From contig CACXBF010000013.1 in the NCBI GenBank assembly GCA_902765855.1, positions 1-64,000 of the forward strand: DNA of 64,000 nucleotides, written 5' to 3'. The DNA comes from an uncultured Ruminococcus sp. Lineage in GTDB: Bacteria > Bacillota > Clostridia > Oscillospirales > Acutalibacteraceae. Every line of letters starts with the position of its first letter. The first letter of the stretch is position 1. This document shows positions 31,586 to 50,745 of the stretch, piece by piece. The notes below the pieces were generated by a model. It did not search any database. It had not been told where the DNA came from and saw nothing but the letters and a program-made list of their open reading frames with translations. The position numbers were made by a program, and so were the translations under genes.

Positions 31586-32725
31586 TTGAGTAAAATTGTT
31601 TATCTTGATAATAGTGCAACAACAGTTGTCTGTGAGGAGGCCGCTAAAAAAGCCTATTATATGATGACTGAAAAATACGGAAATCCTTCGTCGCTTCATA
31701 CCCTTGGTTTTGAAGCTGCTAAGGAGCTTGAAGCGGCACGAGATATTATAGCAGATTCTCTCAGTGCTTCGCCGACAGAGATTTTCTTTACTTCTGGTGG
31801 AACAGAGAGTAATAATACAGCAGTTTTTGGGGCGGTTAATGCACTAAAACGCAGAGGAAATAAAATCGTTACAACGGCAATAGAACACTCTTCGGTTATA
31901 GAAGCTGCAGAAAAGCTTAAAAAGGACGGTTATGAGGTTATATTCCTCGAACCCGATGAATCTGGTGTTATTCCAAAAGAAAAGTTTGTTAATGCTATAG
32001 ACTCTGATACAATTTTGGTTAGCGTTATGGCGGTAAATAACGAAACAGGTATTATTCAGCCTATAAAATTAATCAGCAATATAATAAGTAAGAGCGGTTC
32101 GCCTGCTTTACTTCACTGTGATGCTGTTCAGGCTTTTGGAAAAGTTAATTTGAAGCCTCAAAAGCTTGGCGTTGATTTGATGTCTATAAGCTCACATAAG
32201 ATACATGGTCCGAAAGGTGTAGGCGCTTTATACATCAGAAAGGGTGCAAGAATTGTACCGCTACATTATGGTGGAGAACAAGAAAGGAAAATTCGTCCCG
32301 GTACGGAATCACTTCCTATGATTTGCGCTTTTGCGGAGGCCATAAAGGCTTTGCCAAACATTGACGACCAGCACGAAAAGATTTTAGATCTTTGGAATTA
32401 TTGCAAAGAAAAGGTTTCGGAAATTCCGAATGTATATATAAATTCTCCGAACGGAGTTTTGCCGTATATATTAAATATATCAGTAGTTGGGGTTCGCTCA
32501 GAAACAATGCTACACTATCTCGCAGAGAGCGGAATATATGTTTCGAGCGGTTCAGCTTGTGCTAAGGGCAAAAAAAGTCATGTTCTGACGGCAATGGGAT
32601 TATCCCCTGAAAGGATAGATTCCGCTATAAGAATTAGCTTTTCGAGATTTAATACAAAAGATGATATTGATATATTTGCGGAAAGACTTGCTGAAGGAAT
32701 GAAAAATCTCGCAAAATCAAAATGA
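31586..32725 (+). CDS. cysteine desulfurase (NifS/IscS-like)
   Basis: The product is 379 residues. It uses a TTG start (no earlier or nearby ATG fits) with GGTGG upstream. The PLP lysine is K205 (SSHKIHGPKG), and the active-site Cys is C325 in SSGSACAKGKKS, with the short loop of group I enzymes. It takes sulfur from Cys and passes persulfide to partners. It is directly coupled to thiI, so its dedicated role is most likely tRNA 4-thiouridine formation, as for the desulfurase-ThiI pairs of other Firmicutes, rather than general Fe-S assembly. Confidence 0.92.
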   Translation: MSKIVYLDNSATTVVCEEAAKKAYYMMTEKYGNPSSLHTLGFEAAKELEAARDIIADSLSASPTEIFFTSGGTESNNTAVFGAVNALKRRGNKIVTTAIEHSSVIEAAEKLKKDGYEVIFLEPDESGVIPKEKFVNAIDSDTILVSVMAVNNETGIIQPIKLISNIISKSGSPALLHCDAVQAFGKVNLKPQKLGVDLMSISSHKIHGPKGVGALYIRKGARIVPLHYGGEQERKIRPGTESLPMICAFAEAIKALPNIDDQHEKILDLWNYCKEKVSEIPNVYINSPNGVLPYILNISVVGVRSETMLHYLAESGIYVSSGSACAKGKKSHVLTAMGLSPERIDSAIRISFSRFNTKDDIDIFAERLAEGMKNLAKSK

Positions 32726-32739
32726 GTAAGGAGTATTTT

Positions 32740-33912
32740 ATGAAAGAAACAATACTTATTAAAGTTGGAGAAATAGCTTTGAAGGGTCTTAACAGAAGAA
32801 GTTTTGAAGATGTTCTCATAAAAAATATTAAACGCAGAGTTAATTGCATAACTCCTTGCGAAGTTAAAATTGCACAATCTACAATAGCGGTAACACCATA
32901 TAAAGATGATGTCGATTTTGATGAGATTGAGGAATGTATATCTAAAATCTTTGGTATAGCAACATATTCAAGAGCTTGTATCGCAGAGAAAAATATGGAA
33001 TCTATTCTTAGCTGCGCTAAGGAATATCTTGCGGAAACACTTAATGAGATAAATTCCTTTAAGGTTGAATCTAAGCGTTCTGATAAGAAATTCCCTTTGA
33101 CATCGCCTGAAATAAGCCGAGAGGTTGGCGGTTTTCTTGCAGAGGAATTTCCACATCTGATGGTTGATGTACATAATCCTGATTTGGTTGTAACAGTAGA
33201 AGTTCGTGATTACGCGGCGTTTATTCGTGGAGCAGCTAAAAAGGGTGCCGGCGGAATACCCGTAGGAACAGGCGGAAACGCTGTTATACTTATTTCGGGC
33301 GGCATAGATTCTCCTGTTGCGGCATGGACTATGGCTAAGAGAGGTCTTTCACTTACGGCTGTTCACTTTGCAAGTCCTCCATATACAAGTGAAAGAGCAG
33401 AAGATAAGGTCGTAAGACTACTCAAAAAGGTAGCAGAGTATAGCGGCCGTATGCAGATGTATACGGTTCCATTTACTAAGATTCAGGAACAGATTAAGGA
33501 TAATTGCCCTGAGGAACTTTTTACTATAATAATGCGTAGATTTATGATGCAAATTTCTGAAAGGATTGCAAGAGAGAAAAATTGCGGTGCTTTGATTACA
33601 GGCGAAAGTCTTGGTCAGGTGGCAAGTCAGACTCTTGGTGCAATAGGCTGTACTGATGAAGTTTGCAGACTTCCTGTTTTCAGACCGCTTATAGGTATGG
33701 ATAAGGAGGAAATTATTGAAATTTCGAGGAAGATTGATACTTTCGATATTTCAATAGAGCCATTTGAAGATTGCTGTACGGTATTTACACCAAAGCATCC
33801 AAGAACTAAGCCTGTACTTAAATATGTTGTAGATGCGCAAAATAAGCTTCCTGTTGATGAATTGATTGATGAGGCGGTTAAAAATGTAAGGGTTACAGAG
33901 ATTTCTTTCTGA
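32740..33912 (+). CDS. thiI: tRNA 4-thiouridine sulfurtransferase
   Basis: The product is 390 residues. The start at 32740 is chosen for AAGGAG seven bases upstream; an ATG at 32722 overlaps the desulfurase stop but lacks its own site. It has an N-terminal ferredoxin-like and THUMP part (about 1-165) and a PP-loop ATPase SGGIDSPVAAW (186-196). It lacks the C-terminal rhodanese domain of the E. coli enzyme, as in other Gram-positives, so sulfur must come directly from the neighbouring desulfurase. It makes s4U8 in tRNA. Confidence 0.93.
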   Translation: MKETILIKVGEIALKGLNRRSFEDVLIKNIKRRVNCITPCEVKIAQSTIAVTPYKDDVDFDEIEECISKIFGIATYSRACIAEKNMESILSCAKEYLAETLNEINSFKVESKRSDKKFPLTSPEISREVGGFLAEEFPHLMVDVHNPDLVVTVEVRDYAAFIRGAAKKGAGGIPVGTGGNAVILISGGIDSPVAAWTMAKRGLSLTAVHFASPPYTSERAEDKVVRLLKKVAEYSGRMQMYTVPFTKIQEQIKDNCPEELFTIIMRRFMMQISERIAREKNCGALITGESLGQVASQTLGAIGCTDEVCRLPVFRPLIGMDKEEIIEISRKIDTFDISIEPFEDCCTVFTPKHPRTKPVLKYVVDAQNKLPVDELIDEAVKNVRVTEISF

Positions 33913-33949: not shown

Positions 33950-36283
33950 ATGAATGCTGAAATTTATCTTTTAAGGGGCGGAAGCGCTTCATCGGCTTGT
34001 GGAAAAGAAAGCTTTAACAGACAGATGAAGGCTCTTGCTGAACATAATGTTTGCGTTCTGTATAAGACTGTTGTTGATAATAATGAAAACAGCTTAAAAG
34101 AAGCTTTGAAGCTTTCTTTTGGAGATGATGAAGGCATTGATGTTATAGTTATTGCTGATGCTATTGAAGAAAGTTCAAGGCAAAATGCAGAAGATTTCTT
34201 CTCTATATTTGAGGTTAAAAATAAAGATATTAGAGAAATTTCTGCGGAAGTGGATATGTCTATACTTAAAACAGGGATTGATAATTCCGAGATTGAAATA
34301 AGCAGTCATTCAGAGGAGAATGAATCTAAAGCTGAGAAAAAAACTGTAAATGTATATTCTGCAAGAGTAGGCGGCAAAAAAAATGGAATTAAGATTGTTA
34401 TTCTTCCGAAAGCTGAATCTGCGGGAGTTGAGTTTTCAGATTTACTTTATGCTGCAATATATAGTTCTTGCATAAAGAATAATCAAAAGAGAGCATGGTG
34501 GAAAAACTTTATTCCGATAAAGGGAGATAAGCCGCTTGAAGTTGTAAGAAAATCTATTCTTATGCTTGCTATTGCAACTTTTATTGTTTCGGGCACATTG
34601 CTCTTTAATGAGCTTGTTATTAAACCTATGGTAGCAGATAACACTAAAAATGGAGTTAAAAGTCTTTTGACCGAGGCTACCGGCGGCGGTGACAGTGATG
34701 ACGATGATTATAATACTGTCGCACCAAAGCGAAAGAAAATCGTTATAGGCGAGAGTGAGGTTTTGCCTGATTTTGAAAAGCTTCTTAATGAAAATAAAGA
34801 TACTGTTGGTTGGATTAAAGTCCCTAATACTCAAATTGATTATGTTGTTTGCCAATCGCAAGACCCTGAACAGCCTGAATATTATTTAAAGCGTGATTTC
34901 TACGGAAATTACAGCGATTATGGAACGATTTTCCTTGATTACAGAAGTCCGCTTGACGCAAAGAACCTTATTCTACACGGACATCATATGAATGACGGAA
35001 GAATGTTTGCAAATTTGCTTTACTACCAAGATCTTAATTTCTATAAGGAAAATCCTGCTTTTACATTTAATACTATATATGAAAAAGCAAAGTGGAAAAT
35101 TATCTCTATATATAAGACTAATACACTTGAAAGTCAGGGCGAATTTTTCAATTATCTGAGAGGAACTTTTGAAACTGAATCTGATTTTATGAATTATATA
35201 TATCAGGTTCGCGCAAGGTCTATTATAGATTGTCCTGTTGATGTTAATGAAGATGATACACTTGTTACACTTTCAACCTGCGCATATGACTTTGATTCGT
35301 TTAGATTTGTCGTTGTTGCAAGGCGTGTTCGCGAGGGGGAAACAGCAAAGGTAGATACATCGACAGCTAAGATGGCGTCGAATCCTGTTTATCCTGATTG
35401 TTGGTATGAAGCATATGGTGGTAAGAAGCCTGTTTTGACAAGTTTTGAAGAGGCTCTTGCTGCAAAGCAGATTACTTGGTATAATAATTCTCATAAGAAA
35501 AAATGGAGTGCATCAGAAGCTCAAAAGGAAGCTACCAAGAAAGCAAAAGAAAAAGAGAAGAAAGAGGAAGAAGCTTCAAAGGCAGCTGAAAAGGCAGATA
35601 AGCTTAAAAAAGCAAAGGCTGAACTGGAAAATGCAAGTTCTTATCTTGATGTAGCAAAAGAAAACTATAAGGGCGCTAATGAGGTATACTCTGATATAAA
35701 ATCATTGGCGAATTCTGCAAAAAATGCATCGACTGAGGCATATAGCAATGCAAGTAAGGGAATTCCAAAGGCTAAATCTGAAAGCACTATAAATAGTCTT
35801 ATTAAAGATATGAAAAACGCAAAATCTAAAAATGACCAGGTTATAGCCTCAAATATGGATAAATGGAAGGAAGCTATTGAAAAGCAGTGCAATGATGCGA
35901 TAGAATATATAAATGCTGCTTTGAAATATTCCACAGATAAGACGATAAAAACTGAGGCGGCGACCTTAAAGAAAAATGCGGAGGATTATAAGAGTAAAAT
36001 CCAAAGTATTATGGACGACTTGGAAAAGCTTATTTCAAGTGCAAAAGATAGGAACAATAAGCTTGATAATATGATTGATAAGGGTAATGCGGCTATTAAA
36101 AAGCTTAAAGCTCAGGAAAGCAGTAAGCCTCAACCAAGTCCAAAGCCAGAATCAAGCCAAGAATCAGAACCAAGCAGCAGTAAGCCAGAATCAAGCAGTA
36201 AACCAGAATCAAGTGTAGAACCTGAACCTGAACCAGAATCAAGTACGGAAGAAACGACACAACCGGAAGAGCAGACCGCATAA
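33950..36283 (+). CDS. class B sortase with N-terminal MoaB/CinA-like domain and C-terminal coiled coil
   Basis: The product is 777 residues; the start at 33950 follows GAAAGGAGTTTTAATA. Residues 1-175 are cytoplasmic and resemble a degenerate MoCF (MoaB/CinA) fold: AEIYLLRGG, KTVVDNNENSLKEAL, IDVIVIADAIEESS, IKIVILPKAESAG. A membrane segment follows (202-222). The class B sortase domain covers about 265-462, with H345 (LHGHHMNDG), C444 (TLSTC) and R452 (FRFVVVARR). A Lys/Glu/Ala coiled coil (about 510-690) and a Pro/Ser/Glu tail finish it. The sortase should anchor proteins to peptidoglycan; the extra domains are unusual. It is coupled to a second MoCF-like membrane protein 36 bases downstream. 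Confidence 0.8.
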   Translation: MNAEIYLLRGGSASSACGKESFNRQMKALAEHNVCVLYKTVVDNNENSLKEALKLSFGDDEGIDVIVIADAIEESSRQNAEDFFSIFEVKNKDIREISAEVDMSILKTGIDNSEIEISSHSEENESKAEKKTVNVYSARVGGKKNGIKIVILPKAESAGVEFSDLLYAAIYSSCIKNNQKRAWWKNFIPIKGDKPLEVVRKSILMLAIATFIVSGTLLFNELVIKPMVADNTKNGVKSLLTEATGGGDSDDDDYNTVAPKRKKIVIGESEVLPDFEKLLNENKDTVGWIKVPNTQIDYVVCQSQDPEQPEYYLKRDFYGNYSDYGTIFLDYRSPLDAKNLILHGHHMNDGRMFANLLYYQDLNFYKENPAFTFNTIYEKAKWKIISIYKTNTLESQGEFFNYLRGTFETESDFMNYIYQVRARSIIDCPVDVNEDDTLVTLSTCAYDFDSFRFVVVARRVREGETAKVDTSTAKMASNPVYPDCWYEAYGGKKPVLTSFEEALAAKQITWYNNSHKKKWSASEAQKEATKKAKEKEKKEEEASKAAEKADKLKKAKAELENASSYLDVAKENYKGANEVYSDIKSLANSAKNASTEAYSNASKGIPKAKSESTINSLIKDMKNAKSKNDQVIASNMDKWKEAIEKQCNDAIEYINAALKYSTDKTIKTEAATLKKNAEDYKSKIQSIMDDLEKLISSAKDRNNKLDNMIDKGNAAIKKLKAQESSKPQPSPKPESSQESEPSSSKPESSSKPESSVEPEPEPESSTEETTQPEEQTA

Positions 36284-36319
36284 GAGGCGGCATAATATAA
36301 AGTAACGGAGAGATTTATT

Positions 36320-36964
36320 ATGGATTACGAACTTATATATTACACCGCAGGAAGAACTGCTGAGGTGGAGCGTGTTCTTGATAAGAACCTTTCTCAAATG
36401 GGACTTTCACATTCGGCGGGAGAGGCGGCAACTACTACATCTGAACTTGCTAACGCACTTGCAAAAAGCCTAAAGAAAAGCCAGCTTATATTTGTTATTG
36501 GTGGACTTAACAATGGCTATGACAGTACGGATAAGGTTCTTTCTAAGATTCTTGTGACTAATGATTCTAATGTATTTTCTAAGCGTGTTGACGGAGAGAA
36601 AAACAGCGGATATATTATCAGGGCGATAGGTCAGACTATTGTTATTTTGCCTGATGAGCCTGATGAGGTTTCTAACATTTTAAAAAATGGAATTATATCA
36701 GATTTGGCAATAACATATTCTTTAAAGGCACCTAAAGAAGAAGCAGACAATGTAGAGGATATTATGCAAAATCTTGATGAAAGCCTTTCAGGGGTACGAA
36801 GAACTCGTCTGATTTCGGCTCCGCCTAAGCCTAAGCTTTATAAACGCAGTCGCAGAGCAAAGGTTATTATAGGAATATTGATTGCATTGGGAGCGATTCT
36901 TGCTATATCAGCCGCAGTTATTGCAGTTATTTACTATTTTATTCCATATTCAACAAATGCTTAA
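36320..36964 (+). CDS. membrane protein with degenerate MoaB/CinA-like domain
   Basis: The product is 214 residues. The cytoplasmic part (1-175) has IYYTAGRTAEVERVLDKNL, QLIFVIGGLNNGYDSTDKVL and GQTIVILPDEPDEVSNIL, which follow the order of MoCF-fold blocks (GGLGPTxxD, then LPGxPxEM), but the catalytic GPT and Asp residues are replaced. One membrane segment (about 182-205) leaves only a few residues outside. It follows the sortase gene in the same operon (CGGAGAG ribosome site). A joint sensory or scaffold role with the sortase is inferred. Confidence 0.6.
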   Translation: MDYELIYYTAGRTAEVERVLDKNLSQMGLSHSAGEAATTTSELANALAKSLKKSQLIFVIGGLNNGYDSTDKVLSKILVTNDSNVFSKRVDGEKNSGYIIRAIGQTIVILPDEPDEVSNILKNGIISDLAITYSLKAPKEEADNVEDIMQNLDESLSGVRRTRLISAPPKPKLYKRSRRAKVIIGILIALGAILAISAAVIAVIYYFIPYSTNA

Positions 36965-36979
36965 CATATTAAAAAGCGT

Positions 36980-37021
36980 AGAAAAGAGGTAAAGTCTATT
37001 GCAGGCTTTACCTCTTTTCTT
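36980..37021 (+). terminator. terminator of the sortase operon
   Basis: AGAAAAGAGGTAAAG-N11-CTTTACCTCTTTTCT. Confidence 0.85.
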
Positions 37022-37404: not shown

Positions 37405-38145
37405 TTATATTAGTGTTACAAAATTGCTATTTACATAGCCTTGAAGTCCGTTATAGGTTATGAGATACCATGAACCCTCTGTACCTAAAATTGTAAGAAT
37501 TGCACCACGAGGTGCTTGACCTATAACTTGAGCACTGGTTGATGGTTGATTTCTTATGTTGAGAGCGGTATTTTGTGTTGTAACTCTGCCTTGACTGGGA
37601 GCAGTTGGTTCTTCTTCAAGCACACCGAGAAAATCAGTTACAGATGCGGATAAATTTTCGGCTATGGCGGAAATGTTATCACGAATCCATTGTGCCTCTT
37701 CCGGATTATCATGATAACCTACTTCGATAAGAATAGCCGGTGCTCTCGTTCGGACAATTTCTGCAAGCGATGTTGTAGGAATGGTTTTTACAAGCTCAGG
37801 ATATGGATAAACCAACTTATAGTTATTTGCAAAAATTGTTGCGGCTCGAGTTCCTTGACTACTTGCGGCTGAATAATATATGTCGGCTCCTTTGACATTA
37901 CCTGCATTTGATGGAGGAGCGGCATTTGAATGTATAGCAAGATGAAGATTGTAATTTCCTGCATTAGATTGTGCAATAGCCTGAGAAAGAGTTTGTTCGG
38001 GACTATTTCTGCCGACCTCGATTCCACTTGAGGTTAGAATAGGAACCATTTCATCGGCAATTAAATTCATATAATATTCTTCGTTTCCGCCATTTACATA
38101 GGGATTGTATTCTTGAAGCGACGGACTTAGAAAAACACTTGGCAT
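37405..38145 (-). CDS. N-acetylmuramoyl-L-alanine amidase with SH3b domain
   Basis: The product is 246 residues. The Amidase_3 domain covers about 1-172: NEEYYMNLIADEM (metal-site Glu), LHLAIHSNAAP (His) and APAILIEVGYHDNPEEA (catalytic Glu). The usual first zinc ligand (PGHGG) is replaced by an SPSLQEYNP stretch, as in a recognisable clostridial/phage-like subgroup. The C-terminal ~60 residues form a bacterial SH3 domain (ALNIRNQPSTSAQVIGQ, GYVNSNFVTL) for cell-wall binding. There is no signal peptide, so release may be by mother-cell lysis, as for CwlC-like spore enzymes. It is convergent with repeat copy B. Confidence 0.8.
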   Translation of the reverse strand: MPSVFLSPSLQEYNPYVNGGNEEYYMNLIADEMVPILTSSGIEVGRNSPEQTLSQAIAQSNAGNYNLHLAIHSNAAPPSNAGNVKGADIYYSAASSQGTRAATIFANNYKLVYPYPELVKTIPTTSLAEIVRTRAPAILIEVGYHDNPEEAQWIRDNISAIAENLSASVTDFLGVLEEEPTAPSQGRVTTQNTALNIRNQPSTSAQVIGQAPRGAILTILGTEGSWYLITYNGLQGYVNSNFVTLI

Positions 38146-38201
38146 AAAATCTCTCCTTTAATCTTATAAACTATAATATGAATATTAGCCTGAAATGTTT
38201 A

Positions 38202-39074
38202 TTATTCTATTTTTGAGAGAATTTCAGCAGCACTTTTATTATGTGGGCGTATGAAACGATGCAATTCGTGCAAATCGTCTTCACTTTTTATATGGTTAAG
38301 TTTTTCTGAACAGTCAAAACTTGCGCGGAAACCTAATTCTTTGATGATGTCCGGAGAACTTTTAGAAATTGCACCATATGGATAGATAAAAGCCGTTGGG
38401 GTTATGTTTAATTCGGCTTTCATTCTCTCATTAAATTTTTTCAAATCTTCTGAAAGATTTTTTCGATATTCTTCATCGGATTCACCGATTTTTTGGCTTG
38501 CACCAACTCTGCCTATTGATGCGTGCATATTATATGTATGGTTTTGGATTTCTACTAAGCCTGAATCTGACATTTCACGAAGTGTATTCCAATCAGCTTG
38601 TGCATATGCTGGATTTTTATCTCCGTTTTTGCTATATTCATAAATACACTTTCCGATAGGTGAAAGAATCATTTTTGCGTTATATTTCTTTAATAGTGGA
38701 AAAGCATAGGTATAGTTATTAAGGCAACCATCATCGAAAGTTATCATAATTAGCTTTTCAGGAAGAGCTTTGCCATTATCAAAATATTCGAGCAAGTCGG
38801 CAACAACTATTGTTTCATAACCTTTTTCTTTTAGATATTTAAGGTCGGATTCAAATTAATTGGGAGATATTACATATTTGTTTTGTGCGGAGTTATCTTT
38901 TCTTATGCCGTGATACATAAGTATGGGTAATTTGATTTCTTTAGCAGATGATGTAGATGCTACAAGACTTGTTGGTTTTGAACCAGCAAAAATACATATA
39001 GTTATTGCACTTATAATGCAAATTGCAATAGCAAAAGGCAAAATTAAATGCTTTAGTTTTAATGATATAAACAT
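38202..39074 (-). pseudogene. polysaccharide deacetylase interrupted by one ochre codon
   Basis: One continuous frame of 290 codons has a single TAA at 38856-38858. Before it: a signal anchor (about residues 9-30) and LPILMYHGIRK. After it: FESDLKYLKEKGYETI, ITFDDGCLNNY (metal Asp pair) and NHTYNMH (metal His pair), all NodB-domain motifs. The context ISPN-stop-FESDL suggests CAA (Gln) to TAA. A functional enzyme would remove acetyl groups from peptidoglycan or a spore or capsule polymer. Downstream restart at an internal Met would lack the membrane anchor. Confidence 0.85.
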
Positions 39075-40515: not shown

Positions 40516-40944
40516 ATGAGTAAAAGGGTAATGGCAATTTTGTTGATGTCTGCACTGGCATTTTCACTTGCTTGTGGCTGTAAAAATAATGGTACTAAAA
40601 GCACAAGCAGTACGGCTTCTAAAACGGAGAGTTCTATAAGCTCAAGTACAGAAAGTAGTAAGCAAAGTGAATCAAAAACAGAAAGCAGTAAGCAGAGCGA
40701 ATCGAGTATTGATAAAGATTATGAAGAAATGATGAGCTATGTAAATAAACTTTCTCCTGAGCTTACATATGAGCAGGTACTTGAAATTTTGGGAGAGCCT
40801 GATGAAAGATATGGTTCTGGAATAAATAGAGATTGTTATAATTTCGGTAAATATACTTTAAGAATAATAGACTTTAATGCTGGTGCTGAAATATATAATA
40901 GTGAAACTAAAAAAGCTACTACAATATATTATAGTGGACTATAA
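40516..40944 (+). CDS. BamE/SmpA-like lipoprotein, copy 1
   Basis: The product is 142 residues. A lipoprotein signal with lipobox LACGC is followed by a Ser/Lys/Glu spacer (about 25-68). The C-terminal ~75-residue domain has SPELTYEQVLEILGEPDERY and YNFGKYTLRII, similar to the SmpA/OmlA (BamE-like) fold found in many secreted small proteins of Firmicutes. The role is unknown, with protein-protein contact likely. It is nearly identical to the next gene (tandem duplication). Confidence 0.72.
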   Translation: MSKRVMAILLMSALAFSLACGCKNNGTKSTSSTASKTESSISSSTESSKQSESKTESSKQSESSIDKDYEEMMSYVNKLSPELTYEQVLEILGEPDERYGSGINRDCYNFGKYTLRIIDFNAGAEIYNSETKKATTIYYSGL

Positions 40945-40973: not shown

Positions 40974-41390
40974 ATGAGTAAAAGGGTAATGGCAATCTTG
41001 TTAATGTCTGCACTGACATTAGCAATTGCTTGCGGCTGTAAAAATAATGATACTGAAAGCACAAGCAGTACGGCTTCTAAAGTAGAAAGTTCTGTAAGCT
41101 CAAGCACAGAAAGTAGTAAGCAAAATGACTCAAAAACAGAGAATAGTAAGCAGAGCGAATCAAGCACTGATAAAGATTATGAAGAAATGATGAGCTATGT
41201 AAATAAACTTTCTCCTGAGCTTACAGAAGAGCAAGTATATGAAATCTTGGGAGAGCCTGATGAAAGATATGGTTCTGGAATAAATAGAGATTGTTATAAT
41301 TTTGGCAAATATACTTTAAGAATAATAAACTTTAATGCCGGTGCTGAAATATATAATAGTGAAACTAAAGAAATTACTACAATATATTAA
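40974..41390 (+). CDS. BamE/SmpA-like lipoprotein, copy 2
   Basis: The product is 138 residues and parallels copy 1 along its full length, with a few changes (LTEEQVYEILGEP for LTYEQVLEILGEP; the spacer has ESKQ/NDSK swaps; four fewer C-terminal residues). The lipobox is again ACGC. GGAGAGGGGACATTTAT precedes the ATG, 29 bases after copy 1. The high similarity at DNA level, including the 5' ends, shows a recent duplication. Confidence 0.72.
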   Translation: MSKRVMAILLMSALTLAIACGCKNNDTESTSSTASKVESSVSSSTESSKQNDSKTENSKQSESSTDKDYEEMMSYVNKLSPELTEEQVYEILGEPDERYGSGINRDCYNFGKYTLRIINFNAGAEIYNSETKEITTIY

Positions 41391-45770: not shown

Positions 45771-45855
45771 GCGAGTGTGCTGGAATTGGCAGACAGGCAC
45801 GTTTGAGGGGCGTGTGTTTTACGACGTACGGGTTCAAGTCCCGTCACTCGCACCA
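45771..45855 (+). tRNA. tRNA-Leu(GAG), copy 1
   Basis: 85 bases with encoded CCA and a long variable arm (class II). Acceptor GCGAGTG/CACTCGC, anticodon loop TTGAGGG (anticodon GAG), T-loop TTCAAGT. Identical to the copy at 50661. Confidence 0.95.
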
Positions 45856-50660: not shown

Positions 50661-50745
50661 GCGAGTGTGCTGGAATTGGCAGACAGGCACGTTTGAGGGG
50701 CGTGTGTTTTACGACGTACGGGTTCAAGTCCCGTCACTCGCACCA
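50661..50745 (+). tRNA. tRNA-Leu(GAG), copy 2
   Basis: Identical in all 85 bases to the gene at 45771, together with a few bases upstream (TATTT). It has its own promoter and terminator, so it is not a mere att fragment. Confidence 0.95.

Follow-up and report, generated by a model that had tools for sequence, protein, structure and literature searches.

Sortases are usually regarded as acting alone, outside the membrane. Described class B sortases (TIGR03064, PF04203) hold a sortase domain with its His, Cys and Arg residues behind an N-terminal membrane segment, and presumably only a short end of these proteins lies inside the cell. CinA combines a COG1058 (MoCF) domain with a KH domain and a nicotinamide mononucleotide (NMN) deamidase domain; a study of Thermus thermophilus CinA reports that the COG1058 domains form a dimer in the crystal, proposes an enzyme cycle in which they shift together, and finds that the COG1058 domain binds ADP-ribose, ATP and AMP (PMC4246079). 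Here we describe two adjacent genes in a stretch of 64,000 nucleotides (the window) from contig CACXBF010000013.1 of an uncultured Ruminococcus sp. of the family Acutalibacteraceae. The first encodes a protein that shares the sortase domain, the His, Cys and Arg residues and a predicted N-terminal membrane segment with other class B sortases, but adds an inner CinA-type domain of about 180 residues, a long outer tail and a paralogous partner, which is the product of the second gene. On the evidence of profile comparisons, the inner domains of both proteins are degenerate descendants of the COG1058/MoCF domain of CinA that have lost its motifs.

A class B sortase and a partner with CinA-type domains

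The sortase protein matches Pfam Sortase (PF04203) with an E value of 1.9e-11 and 44.2 bits (cutoff 26.6), and scores 152.9 bits against the class B sortase model TIGR03064, less than 1 bit under its cutoff of 153.75. Its His, Cys and Arg are H345, C444 and R452 (codons 34982-34984, 35279-35281 and 35303-35305), and the three residues stand at the same columns in 113 of the 143 sortase open reading frames (ORFs) compared. A preliminary description of the window, made from its letters alone, had called this a complete class B sortase with a cytoplasmic domain and a membrane segment, and this is what we find: hydropathy gives a single hydrophobic segment with positive charge on its N-terminal side (Table 1). 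Of the long coiled coil and the Pro/Ser/Glu tail also claimed there, the tail is present, and the coiled coil stands only as far as a Lys/Glu/Ala-rich stretch that looks helical on reading. The same description held that the next gene encodes a similar cytoplasmic domain with a C-terminal membrane segment, and it does. This window partner is a short form that lacks outer parts found in many relatives.

To place the two inner domains, we aligned 42 MoCF domains of CinA, all from this bacterial family, and compared alignments of each inner domain with them. The sortase N-domain alignment matched with a probability of 98.3 (E 2.3e-14 over 150 columns) and the partner alignment with a probability of 98.6 (E 6.3e-16 over 120 columns). 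Control alignments of the CinA KH domain, the CinA C-terminal domain, the sortase domain, ThiI and IscS stayed at or below a probability of 1.5; with 60 column-shuffled CinA alignments the maximum was 0.7 for the N-domains and 2.4 for the partners. Restricting the alignments to the window and the named loci (A3 for the N-domains, A4 for the partners) still gave 96.8 and 97.9. As single sequences, the window partner scored 87 and the window sortase N-domain 33, so that for the latter the case for homology depends on the alignment; among 200 random ORFs only two exceeded 21, both of them CinA proteins, and 134 IscS and ThiI ORFs reached at most 4.7. Searched against the sequences of the PDB, the partner profile found CinA 6mr3 at E 1.3e-4 and the N-domain profile found the same entry at E 0.13. 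Thus, the MoCF resemblance that the preliminary description had read from the translations goes beyond chance, and by the named matches it is closest to CinA.

Single-sequence searches are less sensitive to this relationship. Against Pfam MoCF_biosynth (PF00994) the window partner reached E 0.012 and 15.7 bits, under the cutoff of 26.6, and the window sortase gave no match. For the 45 single N-domains of A3, no MoCF family was among the matches listed (25 of 29 families), and 12 of 43 partners matched PF00994, with a best E of 3.5e-4. In the search against MoCF_biosynth proposed in the preliminary description, the single window proteins thus stay short of the cutoff.

Relative to CinA, the window proteins have no KH or deamidase domain by Pfam, and the COG1058 motifs are gone. 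Specifically, GTE(L/I/M), GGLGPT, GTAPG and PGPP each occur in 0 of 88 N-type proteins (sortases with the N-terminal degenerate domain) and 0 of 98 P-type proteins (the partners), as does the signature [TS]GG[LIV]GPT, counts in which some genomes that are present as both named and sampled loci appear twice (for example L248/L065, L247/L071, L243/L075 and L249/L072), as also in the companion counts below. The loss of the GPT signature noted in the preliminary description is thus general to both groups. The shorter pattern GG[LI] persists in 61 of 98 P-type and 12 of 88 N-type proteins, and across 43 partner sequences G61, G62 and D112 are conserved at 90% or more and P111 is invariant. A relation to the molybdopterin enzymes MoaB and MogA, which belong to the Pfam family that the partner weakly matches (PF00994), was considered and set aside: all named matches here point to CinA-type proteins, namely the CinA and NMN deamidase-related models of NCBIfam and PDB 6mr3, and the choice between the two was made on these matches.

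We next consider selection, using the ratio of nonsynonymous to synonymous substitution rates (dN/dS) computed for one pair, the window and Pseudoruminococcus massiliensis. In the partner, the ratio is 0.034 for the MoCF domain and 0.215 for the linker and membrane part. In the sortase, it is 0.182 for residues 1-160, 0.079 for the juxtamembrane residues 161-201, 0.015 for the sortase domain (residues 271-500) and 0.155 for the outer tail; the neighbours ThiI and IscS give 0.026 and 0.07, so that the partner's MoCF domain comes near to ThiI. These low values indicate that both MoCF-type domains are retained under purifying selection, the partner's most strongly. Within the juxtamembrane stretch, P189, D193, R200 and K201 are invariant across the 45 sequences of A3. 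A looser form of this pattern (P-x-x-G-D...R-K) is seen in 14 of 16 N-type sortases, 15 of 19 CinA-fused active sortases, 35 of 78 other active sortases and 1 of 13 P-type pseudo-sortases.

Gene cluster and relatives

The window pair is part of a cluster with the order iscS-thiI-(cinA)-sortase-partner, of which iscS is the first recognised gene, and the order iscS-thiI-sortase-partner is conserved in relatives. The iscS and thiI genes overlap by 4 bases on the same strand as the sortase and partner genes, the sortase ATG lies 37 bases past thiI, and 36 bases separate sortase from partner. No clear operon boundary came from a promoter and terminator scan (5 terminators against 4.3 expected); a possible terminator behind the partner gene was missed by that scan, which permits loops of 3-8.

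To determine how widely the pair occurs, we sampled 150 genomes of the family and inspected regions from 125 of them, leaving 25 aside; in addition, a scan of named genomes with the sortase alignment confirmed 416 stretches, of which the best 80 were kept, corresponding to 78 loci, several of them interrupted by contig ends. A plain protein search matched the partner in 27 of the 150 family genomes, the window's own counted. Among the 78 named loci, N-type and P-type domains both exceed 80 bits in 56, the N-type alone in 16, the P-type alone in 5 and neither in 1. The nearest of the best 80 stretches is that of P. massiliensis Marseille-P3876 (98% over the query), and the locus of Ruminococcus bromii YE282 holds the pair. 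Of the 125 inspected genomes, 84 have a sortase no more than 3 kb from thiI or iscS, and a partner is recognised in 64 (61 by hidden Markov model, 45 by profile comparison above 50). The pair is therefore not confined to one strain, which excludes one of the refuting outcomes named in the preliminary description, and the neighbourhood survey that it suggested finds the pair conserved with a class B sortase in the iscS-thiI-(cinA) context. Seven loci (L214, L216, L223, L225, L231, L239 and L241) have a separate second sortase gene, encoding about 500-555 residues, between the N-type sortase and the partner.

The iscS-thiI-cinA context, fusions of whole CinA to a sortase and larger pseudo-sortase/SpoIID partners in relatives all go beyond the preliminary description. 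CinA is fused to or within 3 kb of a sortase in 73 of 125 genomes. In some loci a whole cinA gene stands between thiI and the sortase or partner (L077, L082 and L086), and a separate CinA ORF lies near a sortase in 36 of 125 genomes. In others, whole CinA (MoCF, KH and C-domain) forms the N-terminal part of the sortase protein, as in L097 (973 residues) and L098 (1024 residues). Fusion of the CinA C-domain to a sortase domain was found in 37 of 125 genomes, 27 of which include the MoCF domain; this rate is biased, as 9 of the 37 came from targeted retrieval of long CinA frames, and contig ends bias it the opposite way. One fusion (G007, locus L102) sits in a single-contig genome, which argues against assembly error. 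Of the 135 genomes with a CinA C-domain, 134 give a single match and G039 gives two, both fragments, so that a fused CinA is the only CinA detected in its genome. Full CinA is joined to a sortase that we class as active in 24 proteins, of which one is truncated by a contig end and three belong to other families; all 24 retain the deamidase motif AES.T.G, 20 retain GTE(L/I/M) and 18 GGLGPT. We also examined 22 regions from other families of the order, picked for high or long sortase matches: full CinA is fused in L317, L323 and L324 and the C-domain only in L319 and L325, CinA matches are partial or weak in L315 and L316, and separate cinA and sortase genes follow thiI in L333 and L336. On the sortase tree, CinA fusions need up to 16 changes and N-type sortases are nearly one lineage (2 changes), event counts that are rough because 76 of the 178 inner branches are open. 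The one CinA of the window genome is encoded on another contig. The window genome and others retain full CinA; in six genomes with N-type sortases (G020, G024, G030, G074, G091 and G106), CinA has shrunk to a frame of 187-212 residues, too short for a MoCF domain.

In many relatives the gene downstream of the sortase encodes a longer partner, in which a degenerate MoCF domain and a membrane segment are followed by a sortase domain without His and Cys and then by a SpoIID domain (PF08486). SpoIID has a wall-cutting role in sporulation. At least one sortase-like ORF lacking both His and Cys is present in 30 of 125 genomes, and on an order-level tree, itself weak, such pseudo-sortases arise several times (8 changes). 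SpoIID exceeds the Pfam cutoff in all 13 scanned pseudo-sortase partners without CinA (including L097, L114 and L309), and inspection of 14 SpoIID stretches by eye showed in every one the Glu preceding Met/Ile, which we take to be the SpoIID catalytic Glu. Five further long partners have no recognised sortase domain; of these, L135, L154 and L331 pass the SpoIID cutoff, L129 narrowly misses it and L162 gives no SpoIID match. The SpoIID domain thus forms the C-terminal domain of the relatives' long partners, where, unlike in other SpoIID proteins, it is joined to degenerate sortase and MoCF-type domains; the window partner has none. A reversed arrangement is seen in L177, L179 and L180, with an active-looking sortase between iscS and thiI and CinA fused to the pseudo-sortase. 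In two loci where the partner follows CinA without a sortase, the next gene (L077:8256-10133 and L083:9106-10932) encodes about 600 residues and is beta-lactamase-like (PF00144).

Table 1. Features of the window at the sortase locus (positions count from the first letter of the window; residue numbers are approximate)
Feature	Positions	Strand	Basis
iscS (cysteine desulfurase)	31586..32725	+	Pfam Aminotran_5, NCBIfam IscS/NifS-type models; same neighbour in relatives
thiI (tRNA uracil 4-sulfurtransferase)	32722..33912	+	TIGR00342, 386 bits (cutoff 264.5)
Class B sortase with CinA-type cytoplasmic domain, 777 residues	33950..36283	+	ATG at 33950, stop ends at 36283
Sortase: N-terminal degenerate COG1058/MoCF domain (N-type), residues 1-180	33950..34489	+	Profile-profile comparison with CinA MoCF; motifs lost
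Sortase: juxtamembrane stretch, P-x-x-G-D and R-K, residues 181-201	34490..34552	+	Alignment A3
Sortase: membrane segment, residues 202-220	34553..34609	+	Hydropathy
Sortase: sortase domain, residues 271-493	34760..35428	+	H345, C444, R452; Pfam and alignments
Sortase: Lys/Glu/Ala-rich, probably helical stretch, residues 520-722	35507..36115	+	Read from translation
Sortase: Pro/Ser/Glu-rich tail, residues 723-777	36116..36280	+	Read from translation
Partner, 214 residues: degenerate COG1058/MoCF domain (P-type) and C-terminal membrane segment	36320..36964	+	ATG at 36320, stop ends at 36964
Partner: MoCF-type domain, residues 1-135	36320..36724	+	CinA MoCF profile match; conserved residues
Partner: membrane segment, residues 186-204	36875..36931	+	Hydropathy
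Possible terminator: 9-pair stem, 11-base loop, then TTTT	36986..37018	+	Spotted by eye

Beyond the locus, the opposite strand just downstream (37405-38795) encodes an amidase with an SH3 domain and a polysaccharide deacetylase, and P. massiliensis has the same neighbours. Two adjacent small lipoprotein-like genes (40516-40944 and 40974-41390) are closely similar and apparently a recent tandem duplication, and two tRNA-Leu genes, both with the gag anticodon, lie about 5 kb apart (45771-45855 and 50661-50745).

Possible roles of the inner domains

Two membrane proteins from one cluster each carry an inner COG1058-type domain, and pairing through these domains is the simplest explanation. We therefore rank first, and tentatively favour, a reading in which the two proteins would be halves of a sortase complex, joined on the inner face of the membrane by catalytically dead CinA-type COG1058 (MoCF) domains; a sensing role ranks second. 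The N-domain and the partner domain would pair with each other as the COG1058 domains of CinA do, and this pairing would bring the active sortase next to the partner. In relatives with the fuller system, the pseudo-sortase/SpoIID part might then open up the peptidoglycan, or hold it in position, as surface proteins with PKTxD-like signals are attached by the sortase; the window lineage would have kept only the pairing part of the partner. The membrane segment is missing from 28 of 85 uncut P-type partners, which must therefore work in the cytoplasm; for 24 of these 28, the cluster also encodes an N-type sortase or CinA. Of the others, L078 and L083 have CinA adjacent by coordinates, in L080 the sortase is truncated by a contig end, and L090 is the exception.

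Several observations weigh against pairing. A MoCF companion is about equally frequent for partners that do have a membrane segment (49 of 57), so that its presence is not specific evidence for pairing. In L072, L075 and L246 the sortase next to a P-type partner has no MoCF domain, partners occur in clusters without a sortase in L077, L082 and L083, and 27 of 125 genomes show neither a thiI/iscS link nor a CinA link to the sortase. A correlation of evolutionary distances between N-domain and partner, which looked good initially, proved non-specific once duplicates were removed and IscS was taken as control: it stands at 0.229 (4 of 500 permutations as high), against 0.325 for the N-domain and IscS. 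As regards the fuller systems, none of the five CinA-pseudo-sortase fusions scanned has SpoIID above the cutoff (under it in L177 and L310, none found in L179, L180 and L303), and the second sortase is not always dead, two sortases with His and Cys being present in L139, L144, L159, L162, L164 and L174.

The survey of sorting signals suggested in the preliminary description bears on the possible substrates of such a complex. The window genome has one SrtB-type sorting signal over the cutoff (srtB_target); the frame that carries it has 774 residues and closes with SPKTSDS, a membrane segment and lysines. The C-terminal order PKTxD, membrane segment, basic tail recurs in two more of its proteins (L340 and L344), bringing the C-terminal PKTxD signals to three; these two adjoin other sortases (C2 and C11), and six other sortase matches in the genome compete for sorting signals. 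By itself PKTxD is hardly enriched, with 15 places against 9 for the reversed control.

An alternative that we consider unlikely is a sensor: at least one of the two dead domains would still have a nucleotide ligand, such as ADP-ribose, AMP or NMN, and would gate the sortase by the pyridine-nucleotide state of the cell. The ligands reported for the CinA COG1058 domain suggest such a role, as does the partner's conservation of G61-G62 and P111-D112, together with GG[LI] in most P-type proteins and an intact deamidase motif in every one of the full CinA-sortase fusions. However, the GPT, GTAPG and PGPP motifs are gone from all N-type and P-type proteins, GG[LI] is rare in the N-type, and G61-G62 is a putative ligand site by analogy. 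Less likely again is a broader proposal: a new kind of envelope machine, with the anchoring of proteins on the outside controlled by a cytoplasmic module of the nicotinamide adenine dinucleotide (NAD) cycle. In it, CinA or the dead domains derived from it would link a pseudo-sortase/SpoIID subunit with an active class B sortase and would relay a pyridine-nucleotide metabolite's state through the membrane, the window representing a reduced form.

The frequency of separate CinA ORFs near sortases, the up to 16 changes that CinA fusions need on the weak tree and the loss of MoCF motifs in some fusions (GGLGPT remaining in 18 of 24) would also fit a by-product of gene order: cinA and the sortase gene, being neighbours, would have become fused by chance, and the window N-domain would be a decaying remnant without a role. 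We regard this as doubtful: the MoCF domain of the window partner is unfused and has a dN/dS of 0.034, the sortase N-domain has 0.18, and the N-type sortases, nearly one lineage, keep the domain in 72 of the 78 named loci (56 + 16). It is more improbable still that the partner serves CinA or NAD recycling, its position beside the sortase being secondary. P-type partners do adjoin CinA without a sortase in L077, L082 and, by coordinates, L083, but the window genome and those of many relatives have CinA elsewhere and the partner still lies beside the sortase. Finally, the conserved stretch ahead of the sortase membrane segment (P-x-x-G-D, R-K) might point to N-domain and partner acting independently of each other, in secretion or membrane targeting and perhaps through the Sec machinery. 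We think this very improbable, as the stretch is also present in sortases without a MoCF domain.

Implications for wall anchoring

No description of a sortase-CinA/MoCF or sortase-SpoIID architecture was found in literature searches by title and abstract start, a coverage that most subscription journals fall outside; the same searches returned nothing for pseudosortase, for class B sortase with Ruminococcus or for a class B sortase fused to a cytoplasmic domain. The claim that the inner domains pair is testable with two small soluble domains. A large gut lineage keeps sortases with an enzyme-derived inner domain and a paralogous partner, often accompanied by an inactive sortase-SpoIID protein, and raises the question of why an NAD-recycling enzyme was fused to a sortase. 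These features point to a complex of several parts, one of them in the cytoplasm, that anchors proteins to the wall. In R. bromii, the scaffoldins Sca2 and Sca5 carry sortase signals (PMC5814915), and since strain YE282 holds the pair, the system may bear on the anchoring of the amylosome.

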